Below, one piece after another: positions 27,012-38,521 of a stretch of DNA of 64,000 nucleotides. The DNA comes from Rhodospirillaceae bacterium (lineage in GTDB: Bacteria > Pseudomonadota > Alphaproteobacteria > SHVZ01), in contig JAEULB010000092.1 in the NCBI GenBank assembly GCA_016792585.1, forward strand, positions 1 to 64,000. The letters are read 5' to 3'. The number at the start of each line of letters is the position of its first letter. The stretch's first letter is position 1. A program made the position numbers and the translations under genes. A model generated the notes under the pieces. It worked only from the letters and a program-made list of their open reading frames with translations. It made no database searches and had not been told where the DNA came from.

Positions 27012-27701
27012 CTACGGCCTGGGCACCTCCGCGATCTCGCGGACCAGCTTGGCCGCGACCGCGCGGGCGAAGTCGTCGAAGCCCCTGGCGACGATGAGGA
27101 AGGATCCCGGCCCGCCGATCACGTGCTGCTCGTAGTAGTCGGCGAGGCCCGGTTCGTAATAGGTCTGGATCGGCAGCCCGTTGATCGTGATGTCGGCGAT
27201 CAAGGCCCGGTCGCGTGCCTCGTCGACCGACCCGCCGACATTGCTTTCGCCGTCGCCCGAGATGTCGAGCACCTTGCGGTCGGTCTCGTAGGGCAGCTCC
27301 TTGAAATAGGTCATCGCCTCGTCGATCGCGCACGGGATGCAGGTATCGCCGACCAGCTGGCGGCGATGCTCGCGGATGATCTTCGACACCGCCTGGGCCG
27401 AGGTTTCGCTGTCGATCAGGGTCCAGGGCACCAGGCGGGCCATCCGCCTTCCATCGCTCCACTCGAAATAGGTCACGGCGATCCGCTTGTTCTCGCCGCC
27501 GAGGATCGCCTGCAGTACCTGCTTCGAGATCAGCGCGTCGGCATAGCCTTTCCGCTGCTGCTCGAAGCGCTGCTGGTTGACGCTGCCTGAGGAATCGACC
27601 GCGAGCACCAGCGCCAAGTCGATCCGTTCCGCCGCACGCAACGCGGCCGGCAGGAATCCGACGGCGGCAATCGCCAGGAGCAGGACCAGACGCCGATACA
27701 T
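27012..27701 (-). CDS. DUF1194 (von Willebrand A-like) secreted protein
   Basis: The 229-residue protein has a signal peptide (MYRRLVLLLAIAAVGFLPAA, cleavage near ALRA) and a VWA-type fold with the metal-ion site AVDSSGSVNQQRFEQQ (DxSxS) and later VLDISGDGESNVGG. The CIPCAI pair may form a disulphide. DUF1194 proteins are common in alphaproteobacteria and of unknown function, probably periplasmic. The start at 27701 is the first Met before the signal peptide. It is divergent from the transporter array by 66 nt. Confidence 0.88.
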   Translation of the reverse strand: MYRRLVLLLAIAAVGFLPAALRAAERIDLALVLAVDSSGSVNQQRFEQQRKGYADALISKQVLQAILGGENKRIAVTYFEWSDGRRMARLVPWTLIDSETSAQAVSKIIREHRRQLVGDTCIPCAIDEAMTYFKELPYETDRKVLDISGDGESNVGGSVDEARDRALIADITINGLPIQTYYEPGLADYYEQHVIGGPGSFLIVARGFDDFARAVAAKLVREIAEVPRP

Positions 27702-27767
27702 GGGGAAAACGATAACACGCCGCTCGCACTCGCATGGAGTCGGTGTCACAGTGGCTCCTCCCGGCCG

Positions 27768-28661
27768 ATGCCCACCTTTTCCGCCCCTGTCCGCGCGACC
27801 CTGCTGATGCTGGCCGCGACCTTCGTGTCCGGTCTGCAGAACTGCCTGATGCGGCTGATCGCCGACCACGGCATCGACGCCTTCCAGATCACTTTGTTCA
27901 GGAATCTCTTCGGGCTGATCTCGGTCACCGCGATCATCCTGTGGGTGGACCGCCGGATACCCAGGACCCACTGGTTCTGGCCGATCACGCTCTCGTGTTT
28001 CCTTCATGTCGCCTCGATGCTGGCCTTCATCTACGGGCTCAGCCTGCTGCCGCTCAACGAATCGGCGGCCTTGAGCTTCGCCGCGCCGCTGTTCGTCACC
28101 ATCGGCGCCGCCCTCTTCCTCGGCGAGACCGTACGCGCGCGGCGCTGGAGCGCGGTCGCCGCCGGGTTCGTCGGCGTCCTGATCATCCTCAGGCCCGGTT
28201 TCATACCGATCAGCTTCGGCGCGATGATGATCCTGTTCTCCTGCATGATGGGTGCGGCGGTCACGCTGATGTTCAAGACCTTCGCCGGCAACGAGCGGCC
28301 CCTCACCTTGATCTTCTACCAATGCCTCGTCGCCTCGGTGCTGTCGGTGCCGGGCGGTGCCTGGGTGTGGGTCACGCCGAGCCTGCCGATCTTCTTCGCG
28401 CTGGCCTCGATCGGGCTGATCGGCACCTTCGGCTGGCTCTGCTTCCTGCGCGCCTGCAAGCTGATGGACGCCAGCGCGATCCAGCCGATCGAGTTCGTCA
28501 AGCTGCCCTCGGTCGCGTTCTTCGCCTATCTGATGTTCGGCGAGACGCCTGACCGCTGGGTGTGGCTCGGCGCCGCGGTGATTTTCTCGTCCACCCTCTA
28601 CATCGCCCACCGCGAGGCGGTGGTCGCCCGCCGGCGCGCGCTTTCCGGCGCCGACCGATGA
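27768..28661 (+). CDS. EamA/DMT family transporter (array gene 1 of 5)
   Basis: This is a 297-residue inner-membrane protein with about ten hydrophobic segments and two EamA repeats. The shared array signature LPLNESAALSFAAPLF, then GAALFLGETVRARRW and GFVGVLIILRPG, lies in the first repeat, and the second ends with WVWLGAAVIFSSTLYIAHRE. DMT proteins export or import metabolites such as amino acids or nucleotide sugars; substrate unknown. It overlaps array gene 2 by 4 nt (ATGA at 28658-28661) and is closest in sequence to gene 2. Confidence 0.92.
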   Translation: MPTFSAPVRATLLMLAATFVSGLQNCLMRLIADHGIDAFQITLFRNLFGLISVTAIILWVDRRIPRTHWFWPITLSCFLHVASMLAFIYGLSLLPLNESAALSFAAPLFVTIGAALFLGETVRARRWSAVAAGFVGVLIILRPGFIPISFGAMMILFSCMMGAAVTLMFKTFAGNERPLTLIFYQCLVASVLSVPGGAWVWVTPSLPIFFALASIGLIGTFGWLCFLRACKLMDASAIQPIEFVKLPSVAFFAYLMFGETPDRWVWLGAAVIFSSTLYIAHREAVVARRRALSGADR

Positions 28662-29551
28662 ACCCATCCGTCGTCGCCACCGTCTACGCGCTGCTGACGG
28701 TCCTGATCACCGGCCTCCAGAACATCACGATCCGGCTCGCCGCCGATGACGGCGCGCACTCGTTCCAGATCGTGCTGTTCCGGAACCTGTTCGGCCTGGT
28801 CTCGGTCGTGGCGATCATCCTCTGGACCGAACGTACGCTGCCTCGGAGCCGCTATGCCGGCCTTATCGCCATCGCCTGCATCGCGCACGTAGGCTCGATG
28901 TTCTCCGGGTATTTCGGGATCGCGGTCCTGCCGCTGAACGAGTCGGCAGCGCTCGCCTTCGCGATGCCGCTGTTCGCCACGATGGGCGCCGCCCTCTTCC
29001 TCGGTGAGACCGTACGCGCGCGGCGCTGGAGCGCGGTGGTCGCCGGGTTCGTCGGCGTCCTGATCATTCTCCGGCCGGGCGTCATTCCCTTCGAGCTCGG
29101 TGCGGCGATGGTCCTGATCTCGGCGATGCTGGGAGCGGCGATCACGCTGGTCTTCAAGCACTTCATCGGCGGCGAGAGGGCAACGACGCTGATCCTCTAC
29201 CAGTCGCTGTTCTCGGCACTGTTCTCGGTGCCGCCGGCGGCCTTCGTCTGGGAGGTGCCGGCGAACCTCGCGCTCTGGATGATGATCGCCAACGGCATCC
29301 TCGGCACCGTCGGCTGGATCACCTTCCTCCGTGCCTGTGCGCTCGCCGACGCCAGCGCGCTGATGCCGTTCGAGTTCCTGCGCCTGCCGGTGGTCGCGAT
29401 CTTCGCCTACCTGCTGTTCGGCGAGGTGCCGGACCAGTGGGTGTGGCTCGGCGCCGCGGTAATCTTTTCCTCGACCCTCTACATCGCCCACCGCGAGGCC
29501 GTGGTCGCGCGCCAGGCCCGGGCGCGCCCGGCAGCCGGGGACCAGCCGTGA
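28658..29551 (+). CDS. EamA/DMT family transporter (array gene 2 of 5)
   Basis: This 297-residue paralogue of gene 1 has about ten spans. It shares QNITIRLAADDGAHSFQIVL at the N-terminus, VLPLNESAALAFAMPLFATM and WVWLGAAVIFSSTLYIAHRE. The start at 28658 is fixed by the ATGA overlap; the longer frame opening at 28562 is read from within gene 1. DNA around 28985-29065 is nearly identical to the matching part of gene 1. It overlaps gene 3 by GTGA at 29548-29551. Confidence 0.92.
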   Translation: MNPSVVATVYALLTVLITGLQNITIRLAADDGAHSFQIVLFRNLFGLVSVVAIILWTERTLPRSRYAGLIAIACIAHVGSMFSGYFGIAVLPLNESAALAFAMPLFATMGAALFLGETVRARRWSAVVAGFVGVLIILRPGVIPFELGAAMVLISAMLGAAITLVFKHFIGGERATTLILYQSLFSALFSVPPAAFVWEVPANLALWMMIANGILGTVGWITFLRACALADASALMPFEFLRLPVVAIFAYLLFGEVPDQWVWLGAAVIFSSTLYIAHREAVVARQARARPAAGDQP

Positions 29552-30426
29552 GCCCGATGGTCCAGGCCATGAGCCTCATCCTCGCGGCGCAGCTCTCAAC
29601 CGCCTTTCAGAACGTCGCCATCCGGCTTGCGGCCGACGACGGCATCCATCCCTTCCAGATCGCGTGGGTTCGCGGCGTCGTCGGCTTCGTCATGGTCGCG
29701 GCCTTCATCCTCTGGCGCGAGCGCGCAATCCCAAGGCCGAAGGCGATCGGGCAGCTGGTCGCGGTCGGATTCGCCCATGTCGCGGCAATGGTCAGCTTCT
29801 TCTACGGCGTGGCGCTGATCCCGCTGAACGAGTCGACCGCGCTCAGCTTCGCGGCGCCGCTGTTCGGGACCATCGGGGCCGCCCTCTTCCTCGGCGAGAC
29901 GGTCCGCCTCAGGCGCTGGATCGCCGTCGCGATCGGCTTCGTCGGCGTGCTGATCGTGCTTCGCCCGGGCGTGGTGACGATCGGCCTCGGCACCGCCCTC
30001 GTCCTCGTCTCGACCGTCGCCTTCGCCGTGGTGACGCTGCTGTTCCGGACGCTCTCGAGGACCGACCCGCCGACGACGATCGTCTTCTACCAGAGCCTGT
30101 TCTTCTCGGTCGTCACCCTCGCCCCGGCCGCACCGGTGCTCGCCATGCCGTCCGCCTACGCCTTCCTGATGATGGTGATGGTGGCCGTGCTCGGCACCTT
30201 CGGCATGGTTGCCTATACCCGCGCCTTCGCGATCGCCGAGGCCTCCGCGATCCTGCCGTTCGAGTTCTCCCGCCTCCCCTTCATCGCCATCGTCGCCTTC
30301 CTGGTGTTCGGCGAGCGGCCGGACCAATGGGTCTGGCTGGGAGCGGCGGTGATCTTCGGCTCGACTCTTTATATCGCCCATCGCGAGGCCGCCGCCGCCC
30401 GCCGTACCGTCGGGAAGACGGCGTGA
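29548..30426 (+). CDS. EamA/DMT family transporter (array gene 3 of 5)
   Basis: This is a 292-residue ten-span paralogue (QNVAIRLAADDGIHPFQIAW; IPLNESTALSFAAPLFGTIG). It looks intermediate between the gene 1/2 and gene 4/5 types. I use GTG 29548 because it overlaps the previous stop as GTGA, matching the rest of the array; ATG 29557 is an alternative. The second repeat ends WVWLGAAVIFGSTLYIAHRE as in genes 4 and 5. Overlap with gene 4 is GTGA at 30423-30426. Confidence 0.9.
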   Translation: MSPMVQAMSLILAAQLSTAFQNVAIRLAADDGIHPFQIAWVRGVVGFVMVAAFILWRERAIPRPKAIGQLVAVGFAHVAAMVSFFYGVALIPLNESTALSFAAPLFGTIGAALFLGETVRLRRWIAVAIGFVGVLIVLRPGVVTIGLGTALVLVSTVAFAVVTLLFRTLSRTDPPTTIVFYQSLFFSVVTLAPAAPVLAMPSAYAFLMMVMVAVLGTFGMVAYTRAFAIAEASAILPFEFSRLPFIAIVAFLVFGERPDQWVWLGAAVIFGSTLYIAHREAAAARRTVGKTA

Positions 30427-31307
30427 TCCGTTTAAGCCCGCTGATCGCCGCCGTGCTCCTGATGGGAACGGCGGCAGCCCTGACCGCGGCGCAGAACACG
30501 CTGATCCGCTTCCTCGGCGACAGCGGCATCCATCCGTTCGAGATCGCCTTCTTCCGCTGCGTCTTCGGTTTCCTGACCGTGGCACCGCTGGTCGTCTGGT
30601 CCGAGCGCGCCTGGCCTCGCACCCATGCGGCCCGGCCGCTGGCGGCCTCCGGCATGTTCCATTTCACGGCGATGATCTGCTTCTTCACCGGCGTGACGCT
30701 GATCCCGCTGAACGAGTCGGCGGCGCTGACCTTCGCCGGTCCGCTCTTCGCCACGGTCGGCGCCGCGCTGTTCCTTGGCGAAAAGGTGCGGGCGCGACGC
30801 TGGGCGGCGATCGTCGTCGGCTTCATCGGCGTGCTGATCGTGCTCCGGCCCGGTGCCGTGCCGGTCAGCCTCGGTGCCGCGCTGGTGCTTTTTGCGAACA
30901 TCTCCTTCGCCGGCGTCTCGCTGCTGGTGAAGAAGATGTCGGGCACGGAGAAGACGACAACCGTGGTCTTCTACCAGACGCTGATCGTGATGGTCCTGAC
31001 CTTCCCGCTGGCGCTCTGGCACTGGAAGACGCCGACGTCGCACGAGCTTCTGCTGGTCGCCACCCTGGGCGCGCTCTGCACCGCCGGCTGGCTCTGCTTC
31101 ACCCGCGCCTTCGCGCTGGCCGATGCGTCGGCGATCCTGCCGCTCGAGTTCACGCGGCTGCCCTTCGTCGCGATCCTGGCCTACGTCGTGTTCGGCGAGG
31201 TGCCGGACCAGTGGGTGTGGCTCGGCGCTGCGGTGATCTTCGGCTCGACCCTCTACATCGCCCATCGCGAGCACTTGGCCCATCGCCGGGCGCGCGACAA
31301 GGCATGA
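30423..31307 (+). CDS. EamA/DMT family transporter (array gene 4 of 5)
   Basis: This is a 294-residue ten-span paralogue with NTLIRFLGDSGIHPFEIAFF, IPLNESAALTFAGPLFATVG and the distinctive SLLVKKMSGTEKTTTVVFYQ also found in gene 5. The GTG start at 30423 is set by the GTGA overlap with gene 3. It ends in ATGA overlap with gene 5 at 31304-31307. Substrate unknown. Confidence 0.9.
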   Translation: MIRLSPLIAAVLLMGTAAALTAAQNTLIRFLGDSGIHPFEIAFFRCVFGFLTVAPLVVWSERAWPRTHAARPLAASGMFHFTAMICFFTGVTLIPLNESAALTFAGPLFATVGAALFLGEKVRARRWAAIVVGFIGVLIVLRPGAVPVSLGAALVLFANISFAGVSLLVKKMSGTEKTTTVVFYQTLIVMVLTFPLALWHWKTPTSHELLLVATLGALCTAGWLCFTRAFALADASAILPLEFTRLPFVAILAYVVFGEVPDQWVWLGAAVIFGSTLYIAHREHLAHRRARDKA

Positions 31308-32203
31308 CCGCCTTCAGCCCTCTGCTGGTCGCGGCATCGCTGATGACGCTGTCGGCGACGACGATCGCGGTCGGTAACACGCTGATCCGGTCGCTCGGCG
31401 ACATCGGCATCCATCCTTTCGAGATCGCCTTCTTCCGCTGCGCCTTCGGCTTCGCCACCGCGGCGCCGATCGTGCTGTGGCAGACGGGCGGCTGGCCCCG
31501 GACCACGGCGGTCAGGCCGCTGATCGCCTCGGGTCTCTGCCACTACGCCTCGATGCTGTGCTTCTTCACCGGCGTCACGCTGATGCCGCTGAACGAGTCG
31601 GCGGCGCTCAGCTTCGCCACGCCGCTCTTCGCCACCGTCGGCGTCGCCCTCTTCCTCGGCGAGACGGTGCGGGCGCGCCGCTGGATCGCGATCGTCGTCG
31701 GCTTCATCGGCGTGCTGATCGTGCTCAGGCCGGGCGCGGTGCCGCTCGGCCTGGGGCCTGTCCTGGTGATCCTCTCGACCGTGACCTTCGCCGGCGTCAC
31801 CGTGCTGGTGAAGATGATGTCGGGCACCGAGAAGACCGCGACGGTGGTGTTCTACCAGAGCCTGACCGTCATGGTGCTGACCTTCCCGCTTGCGGTCTGG
31901 CACTGGACGACTCCGTCGCTGCCGGCCTTCGTGGCACTGGCGGCCCTGGGCGCGCTCAGCACGCTCGGATGGCTCTGCTTCACCCGCGCCTTCGCGCTGG
32001 CGGACGCGTCGGCGATCCTGCCGTTCGAGTTCACGCGCATGCCGTTCATCGCGATCCTCGCCTATCTCGTCCTGGGCGAGGTTCCCGACAAGTGGACATG
32101 GGTCGGGGCTGCGGTGATCTTCGGCTCGACCCTCTACATCGCGCACCGCGAGCACGCGGCCCACAAGCGCGATCAGATCCAGCGCCGGACCGAAGAGCAG
32201 TAG
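31304..32203 (+). CDS. EamA/DMT family transporter (array gene 5 of 5)
   Basis: This is a 299-residue ten-span paralogue closest to gene 4 (NTLIRSLGDIGIHPFEIAFF; MPLNESAALSFATPLFATVG; VLVKMMSGTEKTATVVFYQS). It starts within the ATGA overlap with gene 4. Its C-terminus (HKRDQIQRRTEEQ) is basic and overlaps the 3' end of the convergent methyltransferase-like gene by 31 nt. Confidence 0.9.
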   Translation: MTAFSPLLVAASLMTLSATTIAVGNTLIRSLGDIGIHPFEIAFFRCAFGFATAAPIVLWQTGGWPRTTAVRPLIASGLCHYASMLCFFTGVTLMPLNESAALSFATPLFATVGVALFLGETVRARRWIAIVVGFIGVLIVLRPGAVPLGLGPVLVILSTVTFAGVTVLVKMMSGTEKTATVVFYQSLTVMVLTFPLAVWHWTTPSLPAFVALAALGALSTLGWLCFTRAFALADASAILPFEFTRMPFIAILAYLVLGEVPDKWTWVGAAVIFGSTLYIAHREHAAHKRDQIQRRTEEQ

Positions 32204-32685
32204 GCGCGGTAGGCGTCGCCGAACCTGGCTTCGAGGTAGCGTTCCTCGCGGCCGATCACGCCGTAGCGCATCACGATCAACACCGGCGCCAGCAGCACGA
32301 TCGGCCACAGGCTGCCATATCCCAGCGCAAGCGCGAGATAGACCAGCGTCAGGCCCAGATAGATCGGGTTGCGCGAAAAGCCATACGGCCCCGAGGTCAC
32401 CAGCGCCGTCGTCGGCATCCAGGTCGGCACGTTGGTCCCGGCGGCGCTGAAGCGGCGGAAGCAGGCGACGAGCAATCCGACGCCGAGGACCAGCACCGCG
32501 CCGGCCACGTACAGCCTGAACGCGAATTCCGGTATCGGCGCTGGGAACACGAGATCGAGCAGGCCGCCGGCCACCAGCGTGCCGAGATAGAGCACGGGCG
32601 GCCTGACCGCGACGCCCGCCGTATCCTGGGCGCCGCTCACAGGCGGCTTCTCAGCCGGTTTCTGCGTGTCCGGAACATGGCGCAC
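32173..32685 (-). CDS. Isoprenylcysteine carboxyl methyltransferase (ICMT)-like membrane protein
   Basis: The translation from GTG 32685 has 170 residues and several membrane spans, and ends with the PEMT/ICMT signature SGPYGFSRNPIYLGLTLVYL and REERYLEARFGDAYRAYCSS. Bacterial members methylate phospholipid or small substrates and are often of unknown role. The start is doubtful: the ribosome site AAGGAGG overlaps the GTG at 32685, while GTG 32640 (155 residues) overlaps the stop of a short leader frame as GTGA. It follows marR by 49 nt and has a copy of the marR palindrome in its promoter. Confidence 0.85.
   Translation of the reverse strand: MRHVPDTQKPAEKPPVSGAQDTAGVAVRPPVLYLGTLVAGGLLDLVFPAPIPEFAFRLYVAGAVLVLGVGLLVACFRRFSAAGTNVPTWMPTTALVTSGPYGFSRNPIYLGLTLVYLALALGYGSLWPIVLLAPVLIVMRYGVIGREERYLEARFGDAYRAYCSSVRRWI
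32637..32678 (-). CDS. Possible 13-codon leader peptide before the ICMT-like gene
   Basis: A short frame MFRTRRNRLRSRL starts at ATG 32678, 6 nt after the ribosome site AGGAGG (32690-32685), and stops with TGA at 32639-32637. That TGA overlaps GTG 32640, an in-frame start of the ICMT-like gene. Five of its 13 residues are arginine, some from rare AGA codons. This is a reading of spacing and frames only; it may simply be an upstream initiation that couples to the main gene. Confidence 0.35.
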   Translation of the reverse strand: MFRTRRNRLRSRL

Positions 32686-36916: not shown

Positions 36917-38521
36917 CTACTTGCGCGCCGACGCGTAGTCGACCTTGAACGGGCCGATCGCGAAGTCCTTCACTTCCTTGCGGATCGCGATCGGGCGCAC
37001 GGTCTGGAACATGTACGCCATCGGCCCGTTGTGGAGCATGTGCTCCTGGATCTTCTTGTATGTCGCGATCCGCTTGGCCGGATCCTTTTCCATCATCGCT
37101 TCGTCGGTCATCTTGTTGATGTTCTCGTCGAACCAGGCCGAGCGCCACGACGGGTACTGCGCCAGCTTGGACTCCAGACGGTTGTCCGGGTTGTAGGCAT
37201 GGCGCGAGATCATGCTGTGCGCGTCGGGATATCCCGCGCCCCAGCCGATCTGGCCGATCTGGAACTCGCGCGCCCGCATCTTGGTGAAGAGGTTGGCGTC
37301 CGCCATCTGCTCGAGATCGAGCTTGATGCCGGCCTTGGCGGCGTTGGCCTGGATGTGCTGAGCGACCGCCGGATTGAACTGGTTCGCCGACAGGATGTAT
37401 TTCATCGAGAAGCCGTTCGGATATCCCGCTTCCGCCAGCAGCTTCTTGGCCATGTCGATGTCGAGCTTGAAGGGCAGCCCCTCCTTCTCGTCCAGCGCAC
37501 CGAAGGCGCCGATCGGGACGAGGCTGTTACGCGCCTTGCCCAGATAGGCCATCACCGACTTCTCCAGCCCCGTGTAGTCGACGAGGTAGCGGAAGGCCTC
37601 GCGCACCTTGGGATTGGCGAGGATCGGGTCGCCCATGTTGAAGGCGAAATAGCTGAAGCCGTGCATCACAGTCTGCTCGATATGCACGTCCTTGTTCGTC
37701 GCCAGCGCCTTCAGGTCGTCGGCGCTGAGCAGCCGGCCGACGTCGATGTCGCTCTTCTCGAGCTGGAGGCGCTGCGCGCCCGACTCCGGCACGTGGCGGA
37801 TCAGGACCCGCTTCAGGCCAGGCTTCTTGCCGAAGTAGTTGTCGTTGGCTTCGAGGATCACCACGTCGTTGGCGTTCCAGGTGCGCACCCGGTACGGGCC
37901 GACGCAGTCGGACTGGGTCTTGAACCAGCCGTTGCCGTAGTCGCTCTTGCTGTCGGTGGTCTTGGCGTTCTTCTCGCCGGTCTCCTTGCTGAGCACCGAG
38001 GCGACGTTGCTGGAGAACGCCGCCGACATCACCAGGCCGACCGGATAGGGCTTGTCCATCTTGACCACGAGCGTGTGGTCGTCGGTGGCGACGAACTGCT
38101 GGTCGGCCTTCTCGGAGCTGAAGCCCCACTCCTTGAGGTTGGCGGCGTTGCCGAAGTTGAGGTGGATGGCGCGCTTCAGGGACCAGGCGGCGTCATGCGC
38201 GGTCGCGGCCTTGCCGGACGGGAACTTGAGGTCCTTGCGCATCTTGAAGGTCAGCGTCATGCCGTCGGCCGAGGTCGACCAGCTCTCGGCGAGCTGCGGC
38301 TCGATCTTGGCGACATCCTTGATGTTCGGCTGTACCAGGCGGTTGCAGACGTTGATCATGATATCGTTGCCGTTGACCTCGCCGATCTGCGCCGGGTCGA
38401 GTGTGATCAGCGCATCCAGGTTCCATGCCATGACCAAGGCGTCCTTGGGCGTCGCGGCATGCGCGGACGCGGCGGCGAGGGTAGCGGCAAGGATCAAGCT
38501 CGGGGCGAGCAGGCGACGCAT
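36917..38521 (-). CDS. ABC transporter substrate-binding protein, peptide/nickel type (family 5)
   Basis: This is a 534-residue periplasmic binding protein with a signal peptide (MRRLLAPSLILAATLAAASA, cleavage near AHA-A). The SBP_bac_5 fold is recognised by LAESWSTSADGMTLTFKMRK and KVREAFRYLVDYTGLEKSVM. It binds peptides or similar solutes for the adjacent importer; the ligand is not evident. A GGAGG ribosome site is 5 nt before the ATG, and a strong palindrome lies 25 nt upstream. It is the first gene of the operon. Confidence 0.95.
   Translation of the reverse strand: MRRLLAPSLILAATLAAASAHAATPKDALVMAWNLDALITLDPAQIGEVNGNDIMINVCNRLVQPNIKDVAKIEPQLAESWSTSADGMTLTFKMRKDLKFPSGKAATAHDAAWSLKRAIHLNFGNAANLKEWGFSSEKADQQFVATDDHTLVVKMDKPYPVGLVMSAAFSSNVASVLSKETGEKNAKTTDSKSDYGNGWFKTQSDCVGPYRVRTWNANDVVILEANDNYFGKKPGLKRVLIRHVPESGAQRLQLEKSDIDVGRLLSADDLKALATNKDVHIEQTVMHGFSYFAFNMGDPILANPKVREAFRYLVDYTGLEKSVMAYLGKARNSLVPIGAFGALDEKEGLPFKLDIDMAKKLLAEAGYPNGFSMKYILSANQFNPAVAQHIQANAAKAGIKLDLEQMADANLFTKMRAREFQIGQIGWGAGYPDAHSMISRHAYNPDNRLESKLAQYPSWRSAWFDENINKMTDEAMMEKDPAKRIATYKKIQEHMLHNGPMAYMFQTVRPIAIRKEVKDFAIGPFKVDYASARK

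Follow-up and report, generated by a model that had tools for sequence, protein, structure and literature searches.

Why should a bacterial genome hold five paralogous DMT transporter genes in a row, each overlapping the next by exactly 4 nt? We examined this question in a 64,000-nt stretch of DNA (here called the window) from a Rhodospirillaceae bacterium, whose genome assembly (G000; 236 contigs, 5.1 Mb) contains 75 EamA domain matches. The region from 27768 to 32203 encodes five complete EamA (DMT) proteins, without internal stops, each with two PF00892 domains (73.7 to 108.8 bits against a cutoff of 28.2, in two stretches per protein; Table 1). The initial annotation had placed all five genes and their 4-nt overlaps, at 28658, 29548, 30423, and 31304, exactly to the base. 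Protein identity among the copies ranges from 46 to 71% overall, and the values for genes 1 and 2 (61%), genes 4 and 5 (71%), and gene 3 against every other copy (52 to 56%) bear out the earlier view that the first two and last two genes pair and that gene 3 is intermediate. The presence of decayed copies in the window was rejected, as all five reading frames are intact. The claim that no copy is decayed holds for the window but not for the sister species G005, in which the last copy (locus L035) has an in-frame TGA at codon 224 where its relatives have tryptophan, reflecting either decay or a sequencing error.

Table 1. Features of the tandem EamA locus and its flanks in the window
Feature	Coordinates	Strand	Remarks
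DUF1194/VWA-domain gene	27012..27701	-	Fixed left neighbor, 6/6 genomes
Conserved block, candidate promoter/operator	27711..27754		Divergent intergenic region before gene 1
EamA/DMT gene 1, class a	27768..28661	+	297 aa, ATG start; orthologues in 6/6 genus genomes
EamA/DMT gene 2, class b	28658..29551	+	297 aa, ATG start; ATGA overlap with gene 1
EamA/DMT gene 3, class c	29548..30426	+	292 aa, GTG start; GTGA overlap with gene 2
EamA/DMT gene 4, class d	30423..31307	+	294 aa, GTG start; GTGA overlap with gene 3
EamA/DMT gene 5, class e	31304..32203	+	299 aa, ATG start; ATGA overlap with gene 4
PEMT-type methyltransferase gene	32173..32685	-	Fixed right neighbor, convergent, 6/6 genomes

The same locus was compared across six genomes of the genus, for which the matching public records are metagenome-assembled genomes, several with isolate names that suggest lakes. 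The array was present in all five genomes other than that of the window, in the same place between the DUF1194 and PEMT-type methyltransferase genes, with 3, 3, 5, 6, and 6 copies in addition to the 5 of the window (28 in total). Beyond these flanks lie a MarR gene and a peptide ABC operon and, on the other side, PHYH and UppP genes in 5/6 genomes. The 3′ end of gene 5 runs about 31 nt into that of the convergent methyltransferase gene (32173 to 32203), and sister species show a similar overlap. An assembly artifact was considered and rejected: five further independent assemblies carry the same array, and assembly error is therefore ruled out. The initial description of the array as unusual stands only in part, as it is a fixed feature of the genus and at least one other alphaproteobacterial family has arrays of a similar kind.

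All 22 internal junctions in the six genomes, including the four in the window, overlap by exactly 4 nt, with ATG, GTG, or TTG as the inner start codon. Each inner start thus overlaps the upstream stop by 4 nt, the arrangement expected for termination-reinitiation; in published tests, overlapping gene pairs were strictly coupled in 13 of 14 cases (PMC6728339). Anti-SD pairing upstream of the 22 inner starts averaged −5.4 kcal/mol, compared to −2.6 kcal/mol at control positions (p ~1e-6), with some junctions weak in such pairing (e.g., that of gene 2 in the window).

The array's only strongly conserved noncoding block (27711 to 27754) lies before gene 1. Across six species, 35 of its 44 positions (80%) are invariant, versus 30% of fourfold sites (p ~1e-8). 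The block may act for the array, for the divergent DUF1194 gene, or for both, possibly as a two-way promoter. No second copy of its right half was found in the genome, and the block was rejected as a regulon motif on the grounds that no second site exists there. A scan of the region for sigma-70-like promoters found none, terminator-like sites occurred near chance level, and a search for an RNA element before gene 1 gave no notable Rfam match. The earlier proposal of a single transcript with reinitiation at every stop is well, if indirectly, supported by the 22/22 junctions, the SD-like enrichment, and the sole conserved block before gene 1; cotranscription itself is presumed from this arrangement.

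How the copies arose can be read from a tree of 41 proteins, in which all 28 array copies form one clade (100/99) whose nearest relative is a single-copy gene from a sister genus. This clade holds in a tree to which 50 other DMT proteins were added. Local duplication had been raised as a point to check by phylogeny, and the placement of all copies in one clade, not among five unrelated DMT families, supports their duplication from one founder gene. The same tree shows classes a to e to be orthologous between species. Class c, the gene 3 type, is present in the window genome, G004, and G005; G001 and G002 lack both class c and class d, copy a′ is restricted to G003 and G004, and copy b′ is restricted to G005.

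The ends of the array are fixed. In the six genomes, the first protein always begins MPT, and the last always has a tail like QR(R/L)T(E/D)E(Q/R/K), including that of G003, whose last gene is otherwise class d. The C-terminal tail of the last copy would be anchored by the overlap with the convergent methyltransferase gene. Interior copies, by comparison, were gained, lost, and, in one species (G003), mosaic. In the G003 array (locus L033), gene 4 has a class e body with c-like ends, and gene 5 has a class d body with a class e tail. The combination of fixed ends, interior gain and loss, and the G003 mosaics therefore points to unequal exchange. Because the copies descend from one founder, the four overlaps of the window are not independent events; we infer one founding overlap that was copied in subsequent duplications.

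Ortholog dN/dS was 0.19 to 0.25 in every class, indicating purifying selection. Divergence between classes exceeded that within classes 4.8-fold at codon positions 1 and 2 and 2.1-fold at position 3, an amino acid excess that is suggestive rather than firm and possibly overstated because third positions are near saturation. At synonymous sites, paralogues within a genome were no more alike than those between genomes; concerted evolution is therefore not detectably ongoing. Ongoing gene conversion was rejected by the same comparison, with clear mosaics found only in G003.

An AlphaFold2 model of gene 4 (pLDDT 87.7) shows the ten-helix DMT fold. It aligns structurally with LicB (Z = 29.5), the triose-phosphate translocator (28.2), and YddG (5i20; 25.6), its alignments to solved DMT structures spanning 251 to 282 residues; a sequence search of solved structures (PDB) gave no match to the array proteins. 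The copies diverge mainly in TM1 to TM3 and TM6 to TM8 (between-class identity of 0.37 for TM1, 0.35 for TM3, and 0.44 to 0.45 for TM6, TM7, and TM8), and TM4, TM5, TM9, and TM10 are kept, with TM4 (0.84), TM5 (0.74), and TM10 (0.86) the helices most alike between classes. TM4, TM9, and TM10 are also held in the wider subfamily, so their conservation does not set the array apart. In DMT transporters generally, the group formed by TM1, TM3, and TM6 to TM8 contributes most to the substrate cavity. The suggestion in the initial annotation that the proteins cover related substrates is consistent with these sites of copy divergence.

Which substrates these might be is a guess, because no equivalog model reaches its cutoff. 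Scores against TIGR00950 (2A78; carboxylate/amino acid/amine transporter) were 41.6 to 65.3 bits against an equivalog cutoff of 230, and those against the RarD models (NF011959 and TIGR00688) were at most 28.2 bits, likewise below the equivalog cutoff. Our guess is that the transporters serve overflow export of amino acids or amines freed from peptides that the cell has taken up, although they may instead be importers. The 118 PF00496 matches in the window genome, some of them fragments, correspond to about 110 family-5 solute-binding proteins (for example at 36917 to 38521 of the window), which in 5.1 Mb is a very large peptide-uptake repertoire. The export guess fits such a genome. A link between the arrays and a nearby family-5 peptide-binding protein was dropped as evidence because the genome has so many genes of this kind.

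We favor, with moderate confidence, the reading that the locus is one translationally coupled transcription unit of founder-derived paralogous DMT transporters with diverged specificities. A single founder gene would have been duplicated repeatedly in tandem, giving rise to the paralogous 10-helix DMT (EamA) transporters. The conserved block upstream of gene 1 would be where transcription begins, and ribosomes finishing one gene would reinitiate at the overlapping start of the next, such that all copies are made together. The overlap probably arose once and was then copied by unequal exchanges within the array, the ends of which would be held by unique flanking DNA. Each protein would be a transporter in its own right with a shifted substrate range, and the array would divide a single transport function among several related small metabolites.

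The copies could instead be subunits of hetero-oligomeric DMT transporters whose stoichiometry is fixed by coupled translation, like paired SMR heterodimers. In E. coli, short overlaps are enriched among complex subunits (30.4% for spacings of −8 to +10 nt versus 6.8% for those above +20 nt; PMC10666635), and the figure of about 30% among closely spaced pairs provides a prior for this reading, although it also means that some 70% of overlapping pairs are not complexes. The products of SMR genes duplicated within an operon are obligate heterodimers (PMC9574504), and the array likewise comprises paralogous genes in what is presumably one operon; ten-helix DMT proteins, however, already contain both halves that an SMR dimer supplies. 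TM5 and TM10, which are described as the dimer interface of yeast Vrg4 (PMC10118193), are conserved between copies, but TM10 conservation is general in the subfamily and for that reason is by itself no argument for hetero-oligomers. Moreover, a fixed complex would poorly tolerate a copy number that varies from 3 to 6 and the lack of classes c and d in G001 and G002. We consider hetero-oligomers unlikely.

Two further explanations were considered. Tandem copies on one transcript would raise output if all carried the same substrate, and copy number does differ between species, but an explanation by gene dosage is very unlikely given that the classes share only 46 to 71% protein identity, remain separate from species to species, and are not especially alike within a genome. 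Alternatively, the array may grow and shrink by recombination in a neutral process of birth and death, its overlaps merely inherited and its arrangement without a selected reason. The G003 mosaics, the species-limited copies a′ and b′, and the nonsense codon in the last copy of G005 are all in keeping with such a process. That every shared class is under purifying selection, that at least classes a and b plus an e-type copy persist in 6/6 species, and that the overlaps survive start codon changes among ATG, GTG, and TTG argue against it, and we regard neutrality as quite unlikely. A coupled unit of transporters with diverged specificities remains our preferred reading.

Similar arrays were found beyond the genus. 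Gene pairs overlapping by 4 nt recur often among the loci examined there, and a run of three occurs in one Defluviicoccus-type genome. In another alphaproteobacterial family, G119/G387 and G385 have nine EamA genes per locus, split into a run of 3 and a run of 6, and all junctions inside the runs of G387 and G385 are at −4 nt; in G221, seven or eight EamA genes follow one another with mixed gaps. Six tandem EamA copies in G059 (locus L037) are separated by gaps of about 25 to 205 nt and have no overlaps. Because these loci were found by similarity, they give no frequency. The tree sets the other-family arrays apart from the window array, and long overlapping arrays therefore arose at least twice. 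In this second lineage, the L084 and L100 arrays consist of 3 + 6 overlapping EamA genes with a single family-5 binding-protein gene between the runs. The L084 array has two PHYH-like stretches about 4 kb away, and the window array has a PHYH gene at about the same distance. A plasmid search returned one weak Agrobacterium match.

More generally, overlapping DMT arrays might represent a recurrent expandable architecture, arisen at least twice in Alphaproteobacteria, that combines translation in set ratios, frame-safe unequal exchange, and proteins acting together as hetero-oligomers or as a graded specificity set. This generalization is tentative, and we think it improbable. Each of the ingredients is already known, and the array itself is real, conserved, and evolving. 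The literature searched held nothing direct on tandem EamA arrays, and in the same papers we found no description of a serially coupled, expandable set of paralogous 10-helix transporters. Since one array occurs at 3, 5, and 6 copies with identical junctions, its growth, loss, specialization, and coupled translation can be studied at a single locus. The arrays also offer natural sets for studying how DMT specificity changes while TM4, TM5, TM9, and TM10 are held.

Several known systems resemble the array in part. Gene pairs coupled by termination-reinitiation have in common with it the ATGA or GTGA overlaps of 4 nt and the SD-like sequence present at many array junctions (PMC6728339), but these are single pairs, whereas the window array has four serial junctions between paralogues and those of sister species have up to five. 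Paired SMR transporters are likewise operonic duplicates of a related fold (PMC9574504); their subunits have 4 helices and need a partner, whereas the array proteins have 10 helices and may work alone. YddG, the LicB choline importer, and the triose-phosphate translocator share two EamA domains and the DMT fold with the array proteins, at only 13 to 16% identity in the structural alignments, and the array differs from them in joining five overlapping paralogues in one unit. The other-family arrays of G119/G387, G385, and G221 consist of tandem EamA runs as in the window, with −4 nt junctions within the runs of G387 and G385. In contrast to the window array, to which they are not sister, they represent a separate expansion with more diverged copies and with a family-5 binding-protein gene between the 3-gene and 6-gene runs.
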